Below are positions 2,856 to 19,883 of a stretch of DNA of 20,052 bases, piece after piece; within the stretch, counting starts at the first letter, position 1, and each line of letters begins with the position of its first letter. The stretch is taken from IMG/VR virus record IMGVR_UViG_3300017917_001107, positions 1 to 20,052 of that record; one strand, given 5' to 3'. This stretch comes from a virus. The translations under genes and the position numbers were made by a program. The notes beneath the pieces were generated by a model. It searched no databases. It was not told the DNA's origin and saw nothing but the letters and a program-made list of their open reading frames with translations.

Positions 2856-3383
2856 TTAAGGTTTCATTCCGTATGAACCATAGTTGAATGCAGCAGGATC
2901 ATTAAATTGACCACGTTGATAGTGTGCGTTGTCTTTACGCAATTCCATAATAATTGTATAACTATCATTTGCTGCCATACCGCGTGTTACAATACCAATA
3001 TCTCCATTGCAACCAGCCGTACCAGCTGCATTATTTGGAATTGTTACCCAGTTTCCTGCACCGTCATATTCTCCGTTGCCATTCAAGAACATTAATGTTT
3101 TTGGAGTTGATGCGTTCCAATAAAGTTGAACGTCACCGGTGACAGCACAATCGTACCATAGGCGATGTACTGAAAGACCATAATAAGAAAGTGTTGTATT
3201 AGATGAACCGCCCTGATTGTTGGCAACAAGATAACCGTTTGTTGCTAATGCACCATACAATGTGTTGGCTGCAATACGCACAGCATTAGATTCTTGACCT
3301 GTGCCATCAAAGGAAGCTGTCAACTTAATCACAACATGTTCTGTTGTGTCTTTAATAATTTGTGATGAATATGCGTTTGCCAT
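2856..3383 (-). CDS. Predicted beta-rich virion-associated protein (175 aa), function unknown
   Basis: No T4 counterpart is recognised. The protein starts MANAYSSQIIKDTTEHVVIKL and has alternating hydrophobic strands. It carries the motifs LSVHRLWYDCAVTGDVQLYW, TPKTLMFLNGNGEYD and GDIGIVTRGMAANDSYTIIM, ending in a Gly/Tyr-rich tail. The pattern of a tryptophan strand, a short 'baLpG' type strand, a glycine loop and a final 'gsytIilelrKd' strand resembles a small beta-sandwich protein often found among phage virion genes; that is an impression from memory, not a search. It has no signal peptide or membrane segment. AGGA lies about 8 nt upstream of ATG 3383. Its place among prohead genes, between the 182-aa unknown and protease 21, suggests a head or decoration role, by inference only. 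Confidence 0.75.
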   Translation of the reverse strand: MANAYSSQIIKDTTEHVVIKLTASFDGTGQESNAVRIAANTLYGALATNGYLVANNQGGSSNTTLSYYGLSVHRLWYDCAVTGDVQLYWNASTPKTLMFLNGNGEYDGAGNWVTIPNNAAGTAGCNGDIGIVTRGMAANDSYTIIMELRKDNAHYQRGQFNDPAAFNYGSYGMKP

Positions 3384-3398
3384 TTTTAATTCCTATTT

Positions 3399-3947
3399 TT
3401 ATTTAAACTTTGAATGTTTCCATGCAAAGTCAACGACTCTGGTAAAATGTTCTTTGCTTTTATGAGCCATATTTTCAATCTTTTTCTTATTTTCATCATT
3501 CACCGCTTTGTGTACATTTAGTACCGCATTTGCTGTCTGTACATCTACCTTTATTGACTTACCGTCTTTAAATTTAATGGGCTTTGCGGCATGATTGTCA
3601 ACAATATCAGTTAAATGATGAATAATACTTTCTTCAACATATTCTTCTTTAAAACTTCTGTCATCATCAACAACACTATATGGCACTGTTACATATTTAT
3701 TAATTTTATCCACATAATATAGTGCAATACGTTCACCATTTGGAAACATACGAATAGCTTTGCGTTTCATTACCAACACTGCTGGCGGATCTTTTTTGGT
3801 TATATCTGCACTCATCGCAGCCAGTTCTGTCAAATGAAAATCTGTAACAAAATCTAATGCATCCAAATGTTCTATCTCCACAGATTCTTTCAACTGTGGA
3901 ATTTCTTTTTCTACCTTTGACTGTACGAATTCTTTAAGAGTTTTCAA
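3399..3947 (-). CDS. Conserved-looking hypothetical protein in the gp68 position, TTG start
   Basis: A protein of 182 aa with no confident family. It occupies the place of prohead core gene 68 between 67 and 21, but I cannot match its sequence to gp68. The N-terminus (KTLKEFVQSKVEKEIPQLKE) is a charged helix. The middle has VMKRKAIRMFPNGERIALYY followed by VDKINKYVTVPYSVV, a compact beta-type segment. The C-terminus (about 130-182) is a Lys/His-rich helix ending WKHSKFK. The start is chosen at TTG 3947 because GGAG lies 6 nt upstream. The longer frame would begin at another TTG (3980) with no ribosome-binding site and a 47-nt overlap. With TTG 3947 the gene overlaps the end of the gp67-like gene by 14 nt, suggesting translational coupling. 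Confidence 0.8.
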   Translation of the reverse strand: MKTLKEFVQSKVEKEIPQLKESVEIEHLDALDFVTDFHLTELAAMSADITKKDPPAVLVMKRKAIRMFPNGERIALYYVDKINKYVTVPYSVVDDDRSFKEEYVEESIIHHLTDIVDNHAAKPIKFKDGKSIKVDVQTANAVLNVHKAVNDENKKKIENMAHKSKEHFTRVVDFAWKHSKFK

Positions 3948-4119
3948 CCTCTGCTCCGGATTCTTGTGTTTGAGGCACAATCAAATTTTTAGCAATCTGT
4001 TGTTTGTGTGCTTCAATATGTGCCATTACTTTATCTTGAATGGCTGAATAAAGAGCATCACGCATCTCTTTACCATTATCATCATATGCATAATCAATAA
4101 TTGCTCTTGCTTTATCCAT
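3934..4119 (-). CDS. 67: Prohead core protein, gp67-like (61 aa)
   Basis: A small, mostly helical protein matching the first two thirds of T4 gp67, the minor prohead core protein needed for correct head shape. A pattern of short acidic/Ala N-terminal helix, then DALYSAIQDKVMAHIEAHKQ, then IAKNLI parallels gp67 (LFAEAMAARTIDLI and IAIARNFLI). It lacks the long acidic tail of T4 gp67 (80 aa). Its position directly after the portal gene is the gp67 position. GGAG at 4126-4129 fits ATG 4119 (6-nt spacing); ATG 4122 is possible. The in-frame ATG at 4131 would overlap the GGAG itself and has no ribosome-binding site of its own. A late promoter lies just upstream, giving a very short leader. The end overlaps the next gene by 14 nt. 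Confidence 0.75.
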   Translation of the reverse strand: MDKARAIIDYAYDDNGKEMRDALYSAIQDKVMAHIEAHKQQIAKNLIVPQTQESGAEVENS

Positions 4120-4138: not shown

Positions 4139-4146
4139 TATTTATA
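4139..4146 (-). promoter_or_regulatory. T4-type late promoter upstream of the gp67-like gene
   Basis: The minus strand reads TATAAATA exactly. It overlaps the portal gene stop codon (4142-4144). Initiation would fall near 4132-4133, so the GGAG site at 4126-4129 would lie within the first few nucleotides of the transcript. It would drive 67-like, the 182-aa gene, the 175-aa gene and 21. Confidence 0.75.
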
Positions 4147-12192: not shown

Positions 12193-12966
12193 TCAATTGA
12201 GCATAAATTCTAACGGCGCACCGTAATTGGTCTGCATTTCTTTCTGTAAAGCATCGATTTCGTCAGATGCTTCTTGGTATATTTTATCTCCGTTTAGAGT
12301 TACGCCGCCAGGTAATTGAATGCCTGAAAACTTTTTCAGGTTATTTCCCCATGTTCTCTTGATAAGTGCCGTTGCATATTCTTTCAACCAACGGTCATTC
12401 CAAACTTTATCAAAAACATCAGGATTAATATTTGCGTAGCATTCGGCCACAATAATAGTTCCTACTGGTGCTTCAGTTTGACCCCAAGCCCAATCAATAT
12501 ACAATCTCTGCATATGTCTCTGGAAACGAATAGGAACTTCACCTGTAAACATCAATGACAACGAACGTAAATGTTGTTGTGTTAATGTATAATTGATGTA
12601 AGAGGCAGAAGTGAAGTCATAAAGTTCATTCAGACGAAGTTGGTATCTAAGGTCAAACATGTTGATGTTTGCCTGCGAATCTTGCAATGGAAATATTCTG
12701 GTGACACCTATGATTTCCATAGGATTATCTTCGGCATCTGTCGCATCTTTTAAATCCAGATATTTCTGGTCGATTTCTTGTTGGCGAACTGCCTTGATGT
12801 AATAGACTTTTTGTGTGCCGTCGAAGTGATAATCTTGCCAATACTGTAACGCATCGTCGATTCTGTCTTCTACTTGGTCGTCATCGACGTTGATATCGAT
12901 GACAGGGAATCCAAGTCTTCTCAGGCAATAGTCTTTGAAACTACTTCTGTCTGTGATGGTGGTCAT
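12193..12966 (-). CDS. 13: Neck protein gp13
   Basis: The head-completion protein that binds the portal and, with gp14, forms the neck. It is 257 aa (T4 gp13: 309). The N-terminal block FKDYCLRRLGFPVIDINVDD, followed by DQVEDRIDDALQYWQDYH, is diagnostic. Further matches are GVTRIFPL, YQLRLNELYDFTSASYINY, GEVPIRFQRHMQRLYIDWAW and KEYATALIKRTWGNNLKKF, with IQLPGGVTLNG. The start is set at ATG 12966 because a weak GGAT lies 7 nt upstream. An in-frame ATG at 12975 (adding MIQ) cannot be excluded and lacks a ribosome-binding site. An exact late promoter lies about 30 nt upstream, so this gene opens the 13-14-15-16-17 operon. Confidence 0.94.
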   Translation of the reverse strand: MTTITDRSSFKDYCLRRLGFPVIDINVDDDQVEDRIDDALQYWQDYHFDGTQKVYYIKAVRQQEIDQKYLDLKDATDAEDNPMEIIGVTRIFPLQDSQANINMFDLRYQLRLNELYDFTSASYINYTLTQQHLRSLSLMFTGEVPIRFQRHMQRLYIDWAWGQTEAPVGTIIVAECYANINPDVFDKVWNDRWLKEYATALIKRTWGNNLKKFSGIQLPGGVTLNGDKIYQEASDEIDALQKEMQTNYGAPLEFMLN

Positions 12967-12975
12967 TTGAATCAT

Positions 12976-12996
12976 CCATGGTGTTATTTACCATGG
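12976..12996 (-). repeat. Inverted repeat (hairpin) between late promoter and gene 13
   Basis: CCATGGT and ACCATGG form a perfect 7-bp stem around a 7-nt loop (minus strand TAAATAAC region), made of two CCATGG palindromes 15 bp apart. It lies immediately downstream of TATAAATA and spans the expected transcription start. In read-through RNA it would fold just before the gp13 start. It is not followed by a T tract, so it does not look like a simple terminator. Confidence 0.5.
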
Positions 12997-13004
12997 TATT
13001 TATA
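12997..13004 (-). promoter_or_regulatory. T4-type late promoter for the 13-14-15-16-17 operon
   Basis: The minus strand reads TATAAATA exactly, in the 40-50 nt gap between fibre-like gene E and gene 13. Initiation would fall near 12990-12991, giving a leader of about 24 nt to ATG 12966. The two genes it separates are otherwise closely packed with their neighbours. Confidence 0.8.
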
Positions 13005-13015
13005 AACTTATTTGT

Positions 13016-14149
13016 CTATTGTCTGGGCACCAAGTAAGACATATTGGTCACGTTCACATACGCATAATTTTGACCATTAATTGTTAACGTGTCGCCAGAA
13101 GCTCCTAAGTTTGATCTTGTACCGTAAATGCCAGTTAATGAACTGAGATCATATACGGTGTCCCATGCAGGATAATGCAACAACGGCATGACAGGAATTG
13201 TTATTGTTGCACCTGACGCATTGGTCGTATTCGCCATACTTGAATATGTTCCTGGTTTCATAGTAGATAAATCACCTGTAGCCGTTGCGGTACTCCATAA
13301 GGATTGATATCCTGGGGTACCCAATGTTGGTGTATACGTGTATACGATACCAAGATTTGATGATACGGCGTATCCTGTTAAATCGTTGCCATCTCCAGGA
13401 TTATAACCTCCCGACACATTATATGCTGTAGTATTAAATGCTGTTCCTGCTGTGTTTGCAACTCCAGCAGAACCAACTTGATATAATATTTGATTAGGTA
13501 AATTATATATTTGTGACTGTGGTGTTGATGGATATTCCGCAAACATCATAACTTTAGAAGCTGTGGCATAACCAATGCCCTGTGCGCTTATAAAAATGGC
13601 TCTTGGGCTTGCATAAATTATAAATTCATATAATACATCTAGTCGAAGTGGTAAATTTGTTGGTGCGACAGTATTGTTATAATTATAACGAAAAGTTAAT
13701 GTTGGATTACCAACATAATCGGTAACACTCCAGGGATTGAAAAAATTAAAAAAATAATTAGATGTTAAGGTTGAGCTATTATTGTTCCATCCTATTCCAA
13801 CATATTTGTAAATTGGAGAACCATTTGCAGTATTAGCTGCATTAGTAGTCCTAAAATACATTATATTTGTATTGCCTGTCGTATCAATTGGAATATTTGT
13901 GGACGTATTTGCATAATTACTTTGATATTCGTTCCAACCTGGCGCAACAGTCCTAACAATCTCGCTGTTTGGTATGTCCCAAAGATTTGGATTTAAATCG
14001 CTAGTTGTCGTTATGTAACCAGTAATAACTCTTGCCATATCTTTCATGTACAAGCTCATAGCTATAGTACCAAGACTATTGGAGTTTGGGCTATTTGCGG
14101 TTTGATTACTACTAGTTATAGTTATTTTTGATCTTAAACGTGCATACAT
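13016..14149 (-). CDS. Fibre-like paralogue E (377 aa), probable tail-fibre or virion surface protein
   Basis: The most divergent of the five related proteins in this region. It starts MYARLRSKITI like the others (M-x-A-R/K/Q-L). A longer insert leads to MKDMARVITGYITTTSDLNP, equivalent to EIANVCTGGITSNTQLEFAN in paralogue B. It also has IYKYVGIGW, then ASPRAIFISAQGIG and MMFAEYPSTPQSQI, matching the family blocks 'R-x-L-I-V-F-A-S' and 'E-F-P-E-T'. The C-terminus GASGDTLTINGQNYAYVNV matches GDEITVGSDTYVVLTI of paralogue C. Composition is very rich in Asn, Ser, Thr, Gly and Tyr and poor in charged residues, as in extracellular beta-structured phage fibres. No signal peptide is seen. A fibre role is inferred from composition and position. 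Confidence 0.8.
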   Translation of the reverse strand: MYARLRSKITITSSNQTANSPNSNSLGTIAMSLYMKDMARVITGYITTTSDLNPNLWDIPNSEIVRTVAPGWNEYQSNYANTSTNIPIDTTGNTNIMYFRTTNAANTANGSPIYKYVGIGWNNNSSTLTSNYFFNFFNPWSVTDYVGNPTLTFRYNYNNTVAPTNLPLRLDVLYEFIIYASPRAIFISAQGIGYATASKVMMFAEYPSTPQSQIYNLPNQILYQVGSAGVANTAGTAFNTTAYNVSGGYNPGDGNDLTGYAVSSNLGIVYTYTPTLGTPGYQSLWSTATATGDLSTMKPGTYSSMANTTNASGATITIPVMPLLHYPAWDTVYDLSSLTGIYGTRSNLGASGDTLTINGQNYAYVNVTNMSYLVPRQ

Positions 14150-14153
14150 GTTT

Positions 14154-14357
14154 TTAACCCCATGACATTCTAGATGTTTCAGTACCTAAAGGTGCATCAT
14201 AGATTGCATTGTTGATTGGTGATACTGTCAAAATTATATTATTGGAAAGATTTAACCCTGTCGTTGATACGGCATTTCCGAATGAGTTTGCAGTAATCAA
14301 AAAAGTATTTGATAACGCATAAACAGTTAATACTCCGTTGTTTGCGAATGCAGCCAT
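14154..14357 (-). CDS. Small Asn/Thr-rich protein (67 aa), paralogue of the 110-aa protein at 17503-17835
   Basis: Unknown function. It opens MAAFANNGVLTVYALSNTF and ends ETSRMSWG. The larger relative opens MASLGNGVIYTLYANSF and ends ATSRFGPPDF before a short extension. It includes one clear copy of the Ala-Asn-Ser repeat (TANSFGNAVSTTGLNLSNN) against about four in the relative. It is hydrophobic and Asn-rich without a convincing transmembrane helix, and probably beta-structured. The start overlaps the stop of paralogue D by 1 nt (TAATG), and the gene lies 4 nt ahead of paralogue E. Translation is therefore likely coupled and the protein may work with the adjacent large proteins. Confidence 0.7.
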   Translation of the reverse strand: MAAFANNGVLTVYALSNTFLITANSFGNAVSTTGLNLSNNIILTVSPINNAIYDAPLGTETSRMSWG

Positions 14358-15388
14358 TATGATTTAGGAAATAATAAAGATGAAAATGTTAATGGCAACG
14401 AAACATAAGTGTTGCTACCATATGTAAATGTACTTTCAATAGGTGATAAAGAACCTCCATTTGGTACATAAGAAACGTTTGTTAAGTTTGTTGCATTAAT
14501 GAAATTGTGACTTCTATTCAAATCATAGAAAAATAAATCTTTACCTGGCATTTGTCTTAAATTTGTATTTGCTTGTGAAAAATATCTATCGCCTGGTTGT
14601 GCTGCACTCGCAACATATGTTTGACCAAAATCAAAAGAATGTGGGCTTGTTAATGCATCAATTGTCTGTAATGATTTTGTATTTGTTGATGCTGTGTATC
14701 CATCGGGCACTTGCATAACAGAATAACCTGGTGCAGCAGATGTTTCGAGTGCAGTTGTTGTGACGGTCAATGCAGCACCACGACCTCTGTATACAACAGC
14801 AGGAATTAAATTGTTACCTGTTGTAATATTGGTTTCTGGATATTCAAATACACCAAATGTACAAATAATGTTGGTTGAAGCATTATATTGAGAATATATG
14901 GCCAAATGTCTTGCACTTGCACTTACGTGTAGTGTTTGAGAAAACGGAATATACCCTTCGTTACTCTGGTGTTTGTATGTTGGATTTGTCACTACAGCTG
15001 TGGTTGTGTTGGCTGAAGTGCAAGAATCCATTTCAACATATCTTGCCGCATAAGTTCTTTGTTGATTTGGATTGGCTGTACCACCAGTTGGTTCAACCCA
15101 AGGTTCATTGGCTGCTGTGCCTTTACAAATCAATCTTGCATATTTGTATTTGCTGGTATTCACGCATTGCGATCTGAAAATATATACGTTACTATTAGAA
15201 GTAACGGCCGCAGGATATATTAACGACCAGTTGGTTGGTGTTGTGTTTATAATTGTACTGTTAACACCATCAAAAACAGATAATTGACTCGCAGTCGTAA
15301 CCGATCCAGTAATGACGTTCGCCATTTCCTGCATCATTTCAGCAATTGTGTTTGCTGTACCGCTTCTAACAACTAACTTTGCGTACAT
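14357..15388 (-). CDS. Fibre-like paralogue D (343 aa), probable tail-fibre or virion surface protein
   Basis: A member of the five-protein family. N-terminal MYAKLVVRSGTANTIAEMMQ then EMANVITGSVTTASQLSVFD aligns with EIANVCTGGITSNTQLEFAN of B. The next blocks are STIINTTPTNWSLIYPA (B: SIVINTEPAGWSIADA), CVNTSKYKYARL (B: CVNSSKTKYCEL), SASARHLAIYSQYN (B: VTNRKLIVFASSVN) and GVFEYPETNITTGNNLIPAV (B: NLEFPETQHTSIWSNLPFIN). The C-terminus STFTYGSNTYVSLPL is a weak version of the family end motif. Residues between the blocks differ strongly, as expected for receptor-facing surfaces. It begins 2 nt after the stop of C, with the same junction sequence (ATTAAGAAAGCATAA) as between B and C. There is no clear Shine-Dalgarno site. 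Confidence 0.8.
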   Translation of the reverse strand: MYAKLVVRSGTANTIAEMMQEMANVITGSVTTASQLSVFDGVNSTIINTTPTNWSLIYPAAVTSNSNVYIFRSQCVNTSKYKYARLICKGTAANEPWVEPTGGTANPNQQRTYAARYVEMDSCTSANTTTAVVTNPTYKHQSNEGYIPFSQTLHVSASARHLAIYSQYNASTNIICTFGVFEYPETNITTGNNLIPAVVYRGRGAALTVTTTALETSAAPGYSVMQVPDGYTASTNTKSLQTIDALTSPHSFDFGQTYVASAAQPGDRYFSQANTNLRQMPGKDLFFYDLNRSHNFINATNLTNVSYVPNGGSLSPIESTFTYGSNTYVSLPLTFSSLLFPKS

Positions 15389-15390
15389 TT

Positions 15391-16446
15391 TTATGCTTTC
15401 TTAATACAAATACATCTATTATATGTAGTGGCGGAACCAATAGTTAATACCACATATGTATCCGAACCAACAGTAATTTCATCTCCGCTTGTTGTATATG
15501 CTGCGGTTCTATAAGTGTAATATGTGTTGGTCAATGAGCTATAATTGTGAAAACCTTCACCTTTTGACATGCGAGTATCAACGAAAGGATATAAAGGATA
15601 TAAAGAAGTTCCTGAAGAATTAATCGTTAGTGAAGGAGGATTGGGCATATAGAATTGCCCTAATGCCTGGTCCGCACGAACTTGAGCTCTAGTTGCAGTT
15701 GTTATATCATACCAGTTAGTAAACCAAGCCGTTCTGTAAACAGACTGTGAATTGCTGTTAATATAATTTGTTGATTGTGGTTCACTGATCGGCGCAGGTC
15801 TAGAACTATCATTTAAGAAAATATTAATAAATGGTAAATTTCCCCATGTTGTTGTATGTGAAGTTTCTGGAAATTCCAAATTCATAATGATGGCTGGTCC
15901 ATTACCACCAGAAGAAGCGAAAACGATTAATTTTCTATTGGTAACACTTATGAAATATTCGGTAACTGTTGAAGATAAATTTGGATTAAAAACAGTTGTT
16001 GTTGCGGTACCACCTGTTGGGCTGTAACTATTAAAATACCAAATAGCATTTGTTAATGTGTTCGCACTCACGGCTGATCCTATGGGAACCCATAAGTAAC
16101 CAGTTGTAGCTGCAGCTGCAGGCCTGGTATTTACAGCTGTTCCAGATGTAGTTAAAGCTTGGGAAGCAAGCGCACTCAATTCGCAATATTTTGTTTTACC
16201 AGTATTGACGCAAGGAGCACTTAATCTATATTGAACTTTTGTGGCCGTATTTGTTGCTTCTATTGCACTATTGGCATCAGCAATGGACCATCCAGCAGGT
16301 TCAGTATTGATGACTATACTTTGTGATGTATTGGCGAATTCTAATTGTGTGTTAGAAGTAATACCACCAACGCAGACATTAGCTATTTCTTTTAATTTTT
16401 GTTGAACCGTCACTGACGATGAAAATATTAATCTTGCATAGGCCAT
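15391..16446 (-). CDS. Fibre-like paralogue C (351 aa), recent duplicate of B
   Basis: Closely similar to paralogue B over its whole length. Both begin MAYARLIF(S/P)S.VTVQQKLK and share SNTQLEFANTSQSIVINTEP and then AGWSIADAN. They also share ATKVQYRLSAPCVN, RPAAAATTGYLW, IGSAVSANTLTNAIWYFN, EYFISVTNRKLIVFASS, LPFINIFLNDSSR and TAWFTNWYD. Both end with a GDE(I/T)T(V/I)G block and KKA. Differences cluster in loops (for example residues 92-108, 145-160 and 220-240). The composition is Asn/Ser/Thr-rich, and it is probably an exposed virion protein. The start lies 2 nt after the B stop and its only upstream purine tract is within the end of B, so translation may be reinitiated. Confidence 0.82.
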   Translation of the reverse strand: MAYARLIFSSSVTVQQKLKEIANVCVGGITSNTQLEFANTSQSIVINTEPAGWSIADANSAIEATNTATKVQYRLSAPCVNTGKTKYCELSALASQALTTSGTAVNTRPAAAATTGYLWVPIGSAVSANTLTNAIWYFNSYSPTGGTATTTVFNPNLSSTVTEYFISVTNRKLIVFASSGGNGPAIIMNLEFPETSHTTTWGNLPFINIFLNDSSRPAPISEPQSTNYINSNSQSVYRTAWFTNWYDITTATRAQVRADQALGQFYMPNPPSLTINSSGTSLYPLYPFVDTRMSKGEGFHNYSSLTNTYYTYRTAAYTTSGDEITVGSDTYVVLTIGSATTYNRCICIKKA

Positions 16447-16448
16447 AA

Positions 16449-17501
16449 TTATGCTTTCTTAATTGCAATCGTGCGCCAATAAGTTGAAGAAGAACCGATT
16501 GTTAAAAGTACGTAAGTATCGCCGCCTATTGTTGTTTCATCACCACTAGCTGAATAATTAGTTGTTTTATATGTATAATATGTATTTGTTAATACACTAT
16601 AATTGTGTACTCCTTCTCCTTTAGTTGTTCTCACATCTACAAATTCACATAAAGGATAAACCGGAGTACCCGAAGATGTAATACTTTGTGAAGGACTATT
16701 TGGTATATAATATTGACCTAATGTTTGGTCCGCACGAACCTGAGTTCTGGTTCCTGATGTCATATCATACCAATTGGTGAACCAAGCCGTTTTGTAAATG
16801 CTCTGCGGGCCTCCAGCAATACTATTGGTGCTTAAAGGTTCGGTACCATTTGTTCTAGAACTATCATTTAAGAAAATATTAATAAATGGTAAATTGCTCC
16901 ATATACTGGTGTGTTGTGTTTCGGGAAATTCTAGATTCATATGAATTGTCGGACCATTGTTCACCGATGAAGCAAAAACGATTAATTTTCTATTGGTAAC
17001 ACTTATAAAATATTCTGTAGCTGATGATGATAAACTTAAACCATAAACGTTTACTGTTTGTCCTCCAGCTGCTCCGCCATAATTATTAAAATACCAAATA
17101 GCATTCGTTAGTGTATTGGCACTCACGGCGGATCCTATAGGAATCCATAAGTAACCAGTTGTAGCTGCAGCTGCAGGTCTGGTGTTATTTTGTGACACGC
17201 TACTTGTTATTGTCTGTGAAGTTAAAGCACCCAATTCACAATATTTGGTTTTGCTTGAATTGACACATGGAGCACTTAGTCTATATTGAACTTTGGTAGC
17301 AGTACCTGTTGCTTCTATGGAACTATTTGCATCTGCGATTGACCATCCTGCGGGTTCAGTATTAATAACAATGCTCTGTGATGTATTGGCAAATTCTAAT
17401 TGTGTATTGGATGTGATACCACCTGTGCAAACGTTGGCTATCTCTTTAAGCTTTTGTTGTACTGTGACCGTAGACGGAAATATTAATCTTGCATAGGCCA
17501 T
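16449..17501 (-). CDS. Fibre-like paralogue B (350 aa), probable tail-fibre or virion surface protein
   Basis: A member of the five-protein family and near-duplicate of C. The start is set at ATG 17501 (MAYARLIFPSTVTVQ), because this matches the N-termini of A and C and lies 1 nt after the stop of the 110-aa gene. A longer frame from TTG 17516 would add MEKYK with no support. GGAAA lies about 10 nt upstream. The N-terminal domain (about 1-125) carries EIANVCTGGITSNTQLEFAN, the W block and the C-V-N-x-x-K-x-K-Y block. A central domain has NRKLIVFASS and NLEFPET, and the C-terminus has the GDETTIGGDTYVLLTI block. Few charged residues and abundant Asn/Ser/Thr suggest extracellular beta structure. 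The role is inferred, not recognised. Confidence 0.82.
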   Translation of the reverse strand: MAYARLIFPSTVTVQQKLKEIANVCTGGITSNTQLEFANTSQSIVINTEPAGWSIADANSSIEATGTATKVQYRLSAPCVNSSKTKYCELGALTSQTITSSVSQNNTRPAAAATTGYLWIPIGSAVSANTLTNAIWYFNNYGGAAGGQTVNVYGLSLSSSATEYFISVTNRKLIVFASSVNNGPTIHMNLEFPETQHTSIWSNLPFINIFLNDSSRTNGTEPLSTNSIAGGPQSIYKTAWFTNWYDMTSGTRTQVRADQTLGQYYIPNSPSQSITSSGTPVYPLCEFVDVRTTKGEGVHNYSVLTNTYYTYKTTNYSASGDETTIGGDTYVLLTIGSSSTYWRTIAIKKA

Positions 17502-17502
17502 T

Positions 17503-17835
17503 TTATATTTTTCCAAATTTAAAATCAGGAGGTCCGAATCGACTTGTTGCAGATTGCAATATCAAATTAACTCGACTATTTGCTTGCATCGTGTTGGTGT
17601 TTCCATATAATAATGATGACGGATATGAAATTGAGGGCGAACTATTTGACATATTTACATATGTATTTCCATATAATGTATTCATATATGATATAGAAAT
17701 GGATGCATTATTTGTTGATGTTAAGTAAGAATTTGCGCGTATATCTACAACTGTGCCGCTTATAGAATTATTTGATTGTGTGACGAATGAATTTGCGTAT
17801 AATGTGTAAATAACGCCATTTCCTAAACTTGCCAT
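17503..17835 (-). CDS. Small Asn/Ser-rich repeat protein (110 aa)
   Basis: Unknown function. Residues 13-94 consist of about four degenerate repeats of 20-22 residues, beginning YANSF (13), RANSY (33), YGNTY (55) and YGNTN (77), each followed by a Ser/Asn-rich turn and an I/V-rich strand. This is the look of a small beta-solenoid or beta-sheet stack. The start (MASLGNGVIYTLYANSF) and end (ATSRFGPPDF) match the 67-aa protein at 14154-14357, which has fewer repeats. It sits 3 nt after paralogue A and 1 nt before paralogue B, so it alternates with the large fibre-like proteins. An accessory or structural partner for them is a reasonable guess. Confidence 0.72.
   Translation of the reverse strand: MASLGNGVIYTLYANSFVTQSNNSISGTVVDIRANSYLTSTNNASISISYMNTLYGNTYVNMSNSSPSISYPSSLLYGNTNTMQANSRVNLILQSATSRFGPPDFKFGKI
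17554..17799 (-). repeat. Internal ANS/GNT peptide repeats in the 110-aa protein
   Basis: Four degenerate units of 20-22 codons, with (Y/R)-(A/G)-N-(S/T)-x at the start of each and Asn/Ser pairs about 8 residues later. Unit starts are near residues 13, 33, 55 and 77. The repeat is visible at protein level; DNA copies have diverged. Confidence 0.6.
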
Positions 17836-17838
17836 GAT

Positions 17839-18936
17839 TTAACCATATTTAACCAATATTGTGGAATAATCCGTAAGGCCAGAGTTGTAGATATTTAACC
17901 CTTTATAGTTTGTATTGTTGGTATCAATCCAAAAACCTTCAGTAAAACTTCCATCAACAAAAAGGAATGTGTTTGAATATTTTGAACAATCTATAATTCC
18001 GTTTCCGTTGGCTGTGTCATCAATAATAATTGGCGCAGGCATCCAAGAATTTTTTCCATTTGTGATTGTTTTTCTGGACGAGACATTTGATAAATCGGCC
18101 GCGCTTGTCAATCCTTCTGCTGACACTGAATTAAAATTGCCACTATTTGCTGATCCTGAAGCGGCCGAAGTTAAGCAACGAATGCCGGTGTTTGCTGGTG
18201 TTGTTGCTCCCATATCGTATGTACCAAGAAGACTTATTACATTCAAAGAAGTCGATGCAGCAACCGTTGAACTTGTTAATTGTGTAGTTGCTCCGCCACC
18301 GGTGATGTGCAAACAAGGAGCTGTATTTGCATAAGCTGTTGGGCCAGTTTCATCAAATTCAGTTGTAAAATGGAAACAAGTTCTGCCGCCAATTGTACTG
18401 GAAATAAACAGATGCCTTGCACTCCAACTCAAATTAACTGCATAAACCTCTGTTGTACTAGTTGCCTTTTTAATTGTTGCAAAAGCACCAGAGTTATTTC
18501 TGTATGTTAGATTGGTTGCATTACCAGATACATCGACCGCAGTCAAACCTTGTACTTGAACACCATAATTGGTTGTGTTGGCATAAAAAGTATTCGCACC
18601 GTTAGTTGGTTCTGCATATAAACCAGTAGAACCTGCAATAATAAATCTTACAAATTTCCATGGACGAGCAGTGTTAATACATGGCGACGAAACAGTTGCT
18701 GTTGTTAGTACGTTACTACCGGCCGCGGGTAAAGACGCAGGATAAGATAAAGTCCAAGCTTCACTGTTTGGATTAACAATAACACTTTGATAATTTGATA
18801 CTGTATCAAATGTTGCGGTTGTTGTTACACCTTCGATGTTGGCTAGATTTTTTTCACCTGTTAATACCTTGATGATACCTTTAAGTACCTGCCCGGCTTG
18901 TGGTGTTGAAGGAAATACTAATTGTGCGTATGCCAT
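17839..18936 (-). CDS. Fibre-like paralogue A (365 aa), probable tail-fibre or virion surface protein
   Basis: The first member of the five-protein family in transcription order. N-terminal MAYAQLVFPSTPQAGQVLKG then IIKVLTGEKNLANIEG corresponds to the B opening. SVIVNPNSEAWTLSYPA matches the W block, CINTARPWKFVRFI matches C-V-N-x-x-K-x-K-Y, SWSARHLFISSTIGG matches NRKLIVFAS, and HFTTEFDETGP matches NLEFPET. Its C-terminus differs from B-E: it lacks the G-D-x-x-T-x-G-x-x-Y motif and ends FVDGSFTEGFWIDTNNTNYK and then a short strand. It is Thr/Ser/Ala/Asn-rich with no membrane segment. It begins 3 nt after the 64-aa gene, with no strong ribosome-binding site. It is likely a virion surface protein, by inference from family and place. 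Confidence 0.8.
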   Translation of the reverse strand: MAYAQLVFPSTPQAGQVLKGIIKVLTGEKNLANIEGVTTTATFDTVSNYQSVIVNPNSEAWTLSYPASLPAAGSNVLTTATVSSPCINTARPWKFVRFIIAGSTGLYAEPTNGANTFYANTTNYGVQVQGLTAVDVSGNATNLTYRNNSGAFATIKKATSTTEVYAVNLSWSARHLFISSTIGGRTCFHFTTEFDETGPTAYANTAPCLHITGGGATTQLTSSTVAASTSLNVISLLGTYDMGATTPANTGIRCLTSAASGSANSGNFNSVSAEGLTSAADLSNVSSRKTITNGKNSWMPAPIIIDDTANGNGIIDCSKYSNTFLFVDGSFTEGFWIDTNNTNYKGLNIYNSGLTDYSTILVKYG

Positions 18937-18939
18937 TTT

Positions 18940-19134
18940 TTATTCCACCAAAGGTTCGCGAACTAAAGTAAACTCGTTACTTTCCATAAATGTTGGCGCA
19001 CCAAAAAATAATGACTCACCAATTCTCAATGTATTGACAGAGGTGGTTACGAGACCCAACAATTCCAAATCTGTTAGTGTGCCGTCATTTGCTTGGTATA
19101 CGTAATATGTTTCGTCAAAAAAAGATAGATCCAT
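18940..19134 (-). CDS. Small acidic hypothetical protein (64 aa)
   Basis: No family recognised. It starts MDLSFFDETYYVYQANDGTL and contains TSVNTLRIGESLFFG, and the C-terminus is acidic (EFTLVREPLVE). It is probably soluble. GAGG lies about 9 nt upstream of ATG 19134, and the gene is packed between the collagen-like fibre gene (11 nt) and paralogue A (3 nt). Its coding status rests on this tight packing and on the lack of any other frame covering the stretch. It may be a small chaperone or baseplate/fibre accessory, but nothing in the sequence shows this. Confidence 0.6.
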   Translation of the reverse strand: MDLSFFDETYYVYQANDGTLTDLELLGLVTTSVNTLRIGESLFFGAPTFMESNEFTLVREPLVE

Positions 19135-19145
19135 TTATATTTACC

Positions 19146-19883
19146 TCAAGTTGAACCTACTAGTTGAACCGTCATGTCGCTACCTGGATATGTATTTCCA
19201 ACTTGCACAATATCCATTGTCAAATAATCATTTGATACGACAGTAAAACTTGATGTTGTATTTCTTGTATATGTGGTATTTGAAAGTGCAGGTACGTTTG
19301 CATTTGCAACACCATTCCTATTTATTCTCACAATCACATTCGCACCTCCAGTAGGAGGGCTGCTAAAATTAATCATAATGTCGGTCACGTTTGCATTTCT
19401 TGGAACATAGTATCTATTTGTACCATTAAATACTGATAGTGTTCCCGAAAATGTTGCAGATACAACTAATGAAATTGGGCCTGTAGCTCCTGTTGCTCCG
19501 GTTGCACCTGATCCAGTTGCGCCTGTTGAACCGGTTGGTCCAGTTGCGCCGGTTTGTCCAACGATTTGCAACTCTCTAATTTGAATTAATGTGGTGTTTG
19601 CTGGAGTTGTTGCGAATGTTAAAGTATCATTTGCAACGGTGTAATCAGTAATAGGAGATTGTAATACACCGTTTTCTGTAACAATTAAAGAGTTTGCAGT
19701 AAAACCAGAAGTAATTGTAAATGTATTTGAAACCCCGTTTGCTGTATATTCTCTGGATATGAATTGTCCAGGCAAACCAACAGTACGAATGACCACCCAA
19801 GCATTTTTGCTTGTTAGATATTGATACGTTTTGTTGTTAACAACTGTAATCGTACCGTTTGATGGGCTAACTGGAAAAGACAT
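19146..19883 (-). CDS. Collagen-like tail fibre protein (245 aa)
   Basis: A probable trimeric fibre or attachment protein. N-terminal MSFPVSPSNGTITVVNNKTY and QYLTSKNAWVVI resemble the short 'virion attachment' opening seen in many phage fibres. Residues about 41-107 (FISREYTANGVSNTFTITSG, LIVTENGVLQSPITDYTV, LIQIREL) look like a small fibre beta domain with the pattern 'v-x-v-N-G-v-l-q-x-P-x-x-D-Y-t-V'. Residues 109-136 are collagen-type Gly-X-Thr triplets with one interruption. The C-terminal domain (about 137-245) has beta strands and would be the receptor-facing or trimerising head. Only a weak GAG lies upstream of ATG 19883. Its place beyond the 13-17 operon matches the fibre/whisker region of T4-like genomes. 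Confidence 0.82.
   Translation of the reverse strand: MSFPVSPSNGTITVVNNKTYQYLTSKNAWVVIRTVGLPGQFISREYTANGVSNTFTITSGFTANSLIVTENGVLQSPITDYTVANDTLTFATTPANTTLIQIRELQIVGQTGATGPTGSTGATGSGATGATGATGPISLVVSATFSGTLSVFNGTNRYYVPRNANVTDIMINFSSPPTGGANVIVRINRNGVANANVPALSNTTYTRNTTSSFTVVSNDYLTMDIVQVGNTYPGSDMTVQLVGST
19476..19559 (-). repeat. Collagen-like Gly-X-Y repeat segment
   Basis: Codes for about nine Gly-X-Thr triplets (GQT, GAT, GPT, GST, GAT, then GAT three times, then GP) with a two-residue GS interruption at residues 124-125. Thr in the third position is usual for bacterial and phage collagen-like stretches, which lack hydroxyproline. Confidence 0.85.

Follow-up and report, generated by a model that had tools for sequence, protein, structure and literature searches.

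In the Pseudomonas siphophage JBD30, gp47 and gp48 have similar folds, and three heterodimers of the two proteins, mutually rotated by 180 degrees, make up each bent arm; the upper baseplate and distal tail proteins anchor three such arms, which embrace the type IV pilus (PMC11445458). Lydia gp67/gp68 have been read as the same arm type (PMC11946847). Similar gene pairs are carried by YuA, SM1, AH2, MMDA13, DLP3, UF_RH1 and others, and gp47/gp48-type genes formed an adjacent pair in 11 of the 11 siphophages examined. A paper on flagellotropic 7-7-1 fibres does not mention JBD30. In T4, the genes for the short tail fibre gp12 and the fibritin wac immediately precede gp13, and in T4-type phages of uncultured bacteria this position is often without a recognisable adhesin. 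Here we analysed a 20,052-base virus fragment, IMG/VR record IMGVR_UViG_3300017917_001107 (the window), which comes from a T4-type myovirus known only from metagenomes and carries T4-type structural genes on its minus strand. Ahead of the neck gene gp13 it carries five paralogues, A to E, which on balance are probably the subunits of a tail-fibre arm like that of JBD30 gp47/gp48, hetero-oligomeric and non-trimeric. An earlier first-pass annotation had listed these five open reading frames (ORFs), and all were present:

17839..18936, minus strand: paralogue A, 365 amino acids, first of the five in transcription order
16449..17501, minus strand: paralogue B, 350 amino acids, ATG at 17501
15391..16446, minus strand: paralogue C, 351 amino acids
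14357..15388, minus strand: paralogue D, 343 amino acids
13016..14149, minus strand: paralogue E, 377 amino acids, the most divergent of the five

AlphaFold2 models of C and E, built from a ten-row alignment with templates unused, were confident in the strand-helix unit at the N-terminus and the beta unit at the C-terminus but poor in the middle loops; the predicted local distance difference test (pLDDT) score was 54.9 for C and 51.6 for E, and the predicted template modelling score 0.66 and 0.65. The best structural match of both models was chain K of the JBD30 baseplate structure 8RK3. The C model aligned over 260 residues (2–351 on 2–318) at Z 15.1, the next best chain scoring 4.6, and the E model over 264 residues (1–377 on 2–318) at Z 13.0, the next best scoring 4.4. 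C and E are only ~24% identical, yet their models share this single outlier, which spans the whole chain and lies about 10 Z units ahead. A Foldseek search of the PDB with the C model was led by 8rk3_G (probability 0.96) and 8rk3_K (0.99), the third match having a probability of 0.04. By residue number and length, chain K (residues 2–318) corresponds to JBD30 gp47 (318 amino acids) and chain G (305 residues) to gp48 (307 amino acids). The top BFVD matches included the gp48-position proteins of AH2 and MMDA13 (lengths 353 and 330); 'virion structural' proteins of FoX4, AchV4 and KL1 were also returned, as were two proteins of Atu_ph07 (lengths 329 and 392, probability 0.91–0.96). The models, at low mean confidence, point to the gp47/gp48 fold over the whole chain of C and E, and to a gp47-like subunit in which a strand and a helix at the N-terminus are followed by a beta core and then by a C-terminal beta unit that finishes in a basic tail. 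A trimeric fibre or lectin-like fold had been anticipated in the first-pass annotation; what was found is a globular subunit, of the kind that alternates with its paralogue along the JBD30 arm. C and E, the two members modelled, returned neither unrelated folds nor an enzyme family.

Besides the predicted fold, A to E share with JBD30 gp47/gp48 (8RK3; phrog_687) a matching C-terminal motif, an arrangement as adjacent paralogues of ~300–380 amino acids, and a tail and adsorption context. A pooled profile of 20–22 gp47/gp48-type proteins from the 11 siphophages was aligned with the window family by hhalign. The alignment was co-linear, C-terminus on C-terminus (local P 3e-4, a value not leaned on for a reason given below), and in global mode P was 7e-6 with the A5 profile or 4e-7 with the g4x profile; none of 100 column shuffles reached the g4x global score. 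Separate gp47 and gp48 profiles gave a local C-terminal match alone, above all shuffles. The profile alignments are supportive, although not conclusive, of remote homology to gp47/gp48, mainly in the C-terminal part.

The paralogy of the five proteins, proposed in the first-pass annotation, was confirmed by BLAST and shuffle tests that exceeded chance (shuffle z-scores of 8–171) for all pairs except A/E, which taken alone showed no significant similarity (z 0.7). E-values were 2e-12, 9e-9 and 7e-7 for A against B, D and C, 3e-11 and 2e-10 for D against C and B, and 4e-5 and 0.01 for E against D and C; B and C were 75% identical. Judged by sequence, A to D clearly constitute one family (E-values 7e-7 to 0), and E is a distant but real member joined via D and C. 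The composition was also as described, with Asn, Ser and Thr making up 32–34% of the residues and Asp, Glu, Lys and Arg 8–11%. The ordered blocks listed previously were seen in the alignments, but the list fits two members slightly less well than claimed: E has no C-(V/I)-N and reads EYPST at the E-(F/Y)-P-E-T block, where A reads EFDET. In 10 of 10 sequences, that is the five and their orthologues on contig IMGVR_UViG_3300044266_000273 (designated G001), Y-A-x-L, the G and T of the helix-end motif, and W, R, E and T were invariant. The Gly-rich tail-fibre adhesin domain (YLVVAGGGGG...) was absent from the A to E sequences and present in neighbours and relatives.

G001 (95.9 kb) was the only other IMG/VR contig found by direct queries. 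It encodes the same five paralogues in identical order, with 70–86% identity to A to E and a ratio of non-synonymous to synonymous substitution rates (dN/dS) of 0.07–0.18, so the five-gene set has been kept whole and not shuffled. On these ratios the five paralogues are under purifying selection in the window/G001 comparison; dN/dS for gp13–gp15 was 0.03–0.08. The orthologue of A (L007:3409-4512) had 86% identity and a dN/dS of 0.07, and those of C, D and E had 85%, 85% and 76% identity. B and C behave as a pair still exchanging sequence, the N-terminal third having been homogenised in a gene conversion-like manner. In their first 100 codons orthology with G001 was lost (3 orthologous versus 12 and 8 non-orthologous informative sites), whereas in the last third it was clear (30 orthologous versus 9 and 6 non-orthologous sites).

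The surrounding genes include four that the first-pass annotation had omitted, namely two small genes interspersed among the paralogues and two genes ahead of them. Its identification of the gene that follows the cassette as gp13 was correct:

19146..19883, minus strand: collagen-like tail-fibre gene leading into the cassette, 245 amino acids, with PHROG tail-fibre matches
18940..19134, minus strand: small gene between the fibre gene and paralogue A, 64 amino acids
17503..17835, minus strand: s110, small interspersed gene, 110 amino acids, Asn/Ser/Thr-rich and fast evolving
14154..14357, minus strand: s67, small interspersed gene, 67 amino acids
12976..13004, minus strand: T4-late-type promoter motif TATAAATA and CCATGG hairpin, both lying between paralogue E and gp13 and conserved in G001
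12193..12975, minus strand: gp13 neck protein, a landmark outside the paralogue family (phrog_211 head-tail adaptor, 1e-42)

The cassette genes are packed with gaps of −1 to 4 bases, in company with the small genes and the fibre gene, and 40 bases separate the end of paralogue E from gp13. The cassette appears to be one late operon. The s110 orthologue in G001 (L007:4530-4660) had 51% identity and a dN/dS of 0.39, the fastest in the cassette, and contained a perfect 66-bp tandem duplication; s110 was weakly similar to s67 (shuffle z 3.5) and may be a linker or adaptor. Identity to G001 was 82% for s67 (dN/dS 0.08) and 67% for the 64 amino acid gene product. G001 has an additional Gly-rich fibre-type gene between E and gp13 (L007:9463-10398), the first 64 amino acids of which match a freshwater-spring phage protein; the window (12976–13015) does not have one.

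The site ahead of gp13 was then compared in 80 loci whose gp13 was 74–84% identical, about half of which carry at least 4 kb upstream. In most such loci it held Gly-rich adhesin-like or other fibre genes. In three lineages (L091; L093/L094/L096; L100/L101) a gene ahead of gp13 encoded the N-terminal domain of the window family (hmmsearch 6.5e-4; on iteration 1.5e-4 and 0.003), and profile-profile alignment of this first gene with A to E gave P 1.9e-6 (90%). The family-like first gene is followed by a second, longer one, the two encoding ~300 and 460–520 amino acids:

L091:1544-3994: two-gene locus ahead of gp13
L093:550-2859: two-gene locus ahead of gp13
L100:5341-7605: two-gene locus ahead of gp13

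The second gene (fam464) was not tied to A to E by profile (P 0.02); position and a resembling C-terminus alone are suggestive of its membership. These loci resemble the window in the site, the upstream fibre domain and the alignable N-terminal domain of the first gene, and differ from it in carrying two genes where the window has five. The C-terminal domain of the 19146–19883 fibre gene was present in exactly the six gp13-neighbourhood loci that have the two-copy family, from which it follows that a real module exists, made of a fibre domain, in some cases a small gene, and either two or five paralogues, and that its copy number varies. The system had been called expandable; the step from two copies in each of three more distant lineages to five in the window agrees with this, but the lack of any copy-number change between the two closest phages does not.

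Together, the fold match to a pilus-binding tail-fibre pair, the fibre neighbours and the site content in relatives support a host-attachment or surface role for A to E. The guess in the first-pass annotation that this is an attachment cassette was probably right in outline, although not as to a trimeric fibre or lectin form. The models suggest that what is new here is a five-subunit, myovirus form of the known two-subunit gp47/gp48 arm, an attachment device of a seldom recognised kind. An ancestral pair would have given rise to five specialised subunits, which would be produced in sequence from a single compact late operon along with the collagen-like fibre protein and two small proteins. The subunits would then line up next to one another to form a hetero-oligomeric arm of greater length, and their divergent middle and C-terminal surfaces may bind a filament or envelope receptor. 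Virion incorporation, stoichiometry, mutual interaction, arm assembly and host binding of A to E are inferred by analogy with JBD30. A type IV pilus as the receptor is speculative and rather less probable than not. We suggest still more tentatively a class of fibre that is a chain of different globular gp47-fold subunits and not a homotrimer, and in which the number of gene copies, two in siphophages such as JBD30 and in some T4-type relatives and five in the window, would determine how long or how specific the arm is; if true, such chains could also explain uncharacterised flexible appendages of jumbo myophages such as Atu_ph07. With the arm reading, one cassette at the gp12/wac position gains a testable structural identity. 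The recently solved pilus-gripping arm would be extended from two-subunit siphophages to a myovirus, in a two-to-five gene series, which opens the question of whether gene copy number encodes arm length, subunit order or receptor choice. The fold combined with tandem paralogy offers a search template for similar appendages that sequence searches miss.

A tail-fibre locus would also suit five independent receptor-binding tips or adhesins that each cap or decorate a fibre, recognise different surface receptors and form no common arm. Points in favour are the conserved N-terminal block with its more divergent remainder, the homogenisation of B and C at the N-terminus but not in the C-terminal parts, where orthology is kept, and the tandem Gly-rich adhesin-like genes that other relatives carry at this site. 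The matched fold, however, is that of an arm subunit working as a paralogue pair, not of a trimeric tip (PMC11445458), and five genes kept in order, at the identities and dN/dS given above for G001, look more like the parts of one machine. We consider independent tips unlikely.

The probability is lower again for a head or neck decoration, in which A to E would form a capsid coat, or neck whiskers replacing wac, and not a baseplate arm. The genes lie immediately ahead of neck gene 13, at the place of wac in T4. The PHROG family of gp47 and gp48, phrog_687, is classed under 'head and packaging', although what the solved proteins make is a tail-fibre arm. The whiskers of the Agrobacterium jumbo myophage Atu_ph07 have been described as mainly capsid-associated (PMC6102473), and this phage has two neighbouring BFVD structural matches. 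The sole solved homologue-like structure nevertheless sits on the baseplate (PMC11445458), and fibre genes dominate the site in relatives. As to T4 itself, A to E had no gp12 or wac match among PHROG and Pfam families, in keeping with the earlier remark that neither gene is seen; they share the place in the gene order but not the coiled-coil or trimeric fibre composition. The two Atu_ph07 proteins, by length, would be gp321 and gp323 (NC_042013.1:244205-247330), which are encoded one gene apart in a tail-fibre cluster and are linked to A to E by predicted structure and length matching, without a sequence match. They resemble a gp47/gp48-type pair, and their annotation as 'tail sheath' is probably wrong. 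Three consecutive BFVD accessions, A7KUT2/3/4, may be those of Bacillus phage 0305phi8-36, a phage with corkscrew fibres, and were set aside.

Several results weigh against the arm reading, and some of them would fit the view that low-confidence models have produced a spurious fold match and that A to E are unrelated to gp47/gp48, being simply Asn/Ser/Thr-rich surface proteins. The models rest on ten sequences with a mean pLDDT of 52–55, and residues 93–160 and 213–282 of the C model are unreliable. HMMER searches with A to E gave no match to phrog_687 at E up to 5 and no link to any PDB sequence. Separate gp47 and gp48 profiles had no global match to the window family, and single-sequence profiles of A and D found nothing against gp47/gp48. 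One of 100 local-mode shuffles beat the real score with an absurd 132.7 on 14 columns, which is why the local P value was not leaned on. Gene position also differs, the window family lying ahead of gp13 and siphophage gp47/gp48 usually between the tape measure and the distal tail protein; the latter position is a habit of the siphophage members and not a functional requirement, but because of this difference the window family is called gp47/gp48-like and is not filed as a member of phrog_687. The window further differs from JBD30 in having five subunits in a T4-type myovirus and not two in a siphophage, in its low-charge, Asn/Ser/Thr-rich composition and in its extra interspersed small genes. 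An artefact is nonetheless improbable, since two models of such dissimilar proteins gave the same single outlier over the whole chain with templates unused, and since the independent profile alignment was co-linear, C-terminus on C-terminus. Enzymes digesting the cell surface, a role suggested by the assignment of JBD30 gp47 to the nitrilase superfamily (PMC11445458), are very improbable, as Pfam finds no domain in JBD30 gp47, gp48 or A to E, and A to E are Asn/Ser/Thr-rich and poor in charged residues.

The wider sequence searches gave no match for A to E among PHROGs, Pfam or PDB sequences, and a tblastn search of 50,697 phage records with A, C and D was negative. Profile A2 found nothing at E<=1 in ten complete T4-type/marine phage records, Atu_ph07, JBD30 and six large relative contigs, which is weak evidence because this first look was coarse. 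A match of A to PHROG 34083 ('host range and adsorption') was weak (E 0.099) and was disregarded, as were MacB matches (E 0.4).

Among named phages, the best relatives of the window gp13 were those of Caulobacter phage Cr30 (49%) and of Stenotrophomonas phage DLP6 and Methylophilales phage Melnitz (45%). The same site encodes tail fibres in Melnitz and phiN3, a YadA-type structural protein in P-SSM7, and enzymes in HTVC008M, Mosig and S-RIM44. The genes ahead of gp13 in Cr30 (315, 116 and 321 amino acids), an apparent parallel, were found to be unrelated. Tandem Gly-rich adhesin-like paralogues were present ahead of gp13 in two loci with 80% identical gp13 (L034:879-7656 and L035:618-8857), where an oxygenase-like gene, as read from sequence, adjoins gp13. 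These arrays may represent a second kind of tandem expansion at this site. Elsewhere in the window, further TATAAATA motifs were found at 4146 and 2198 on the minus strand, and a 175 amino acid protein is encoded at 2856–3383, flanked by the gp21-type protease gene and by an ORF at 3399–3980.

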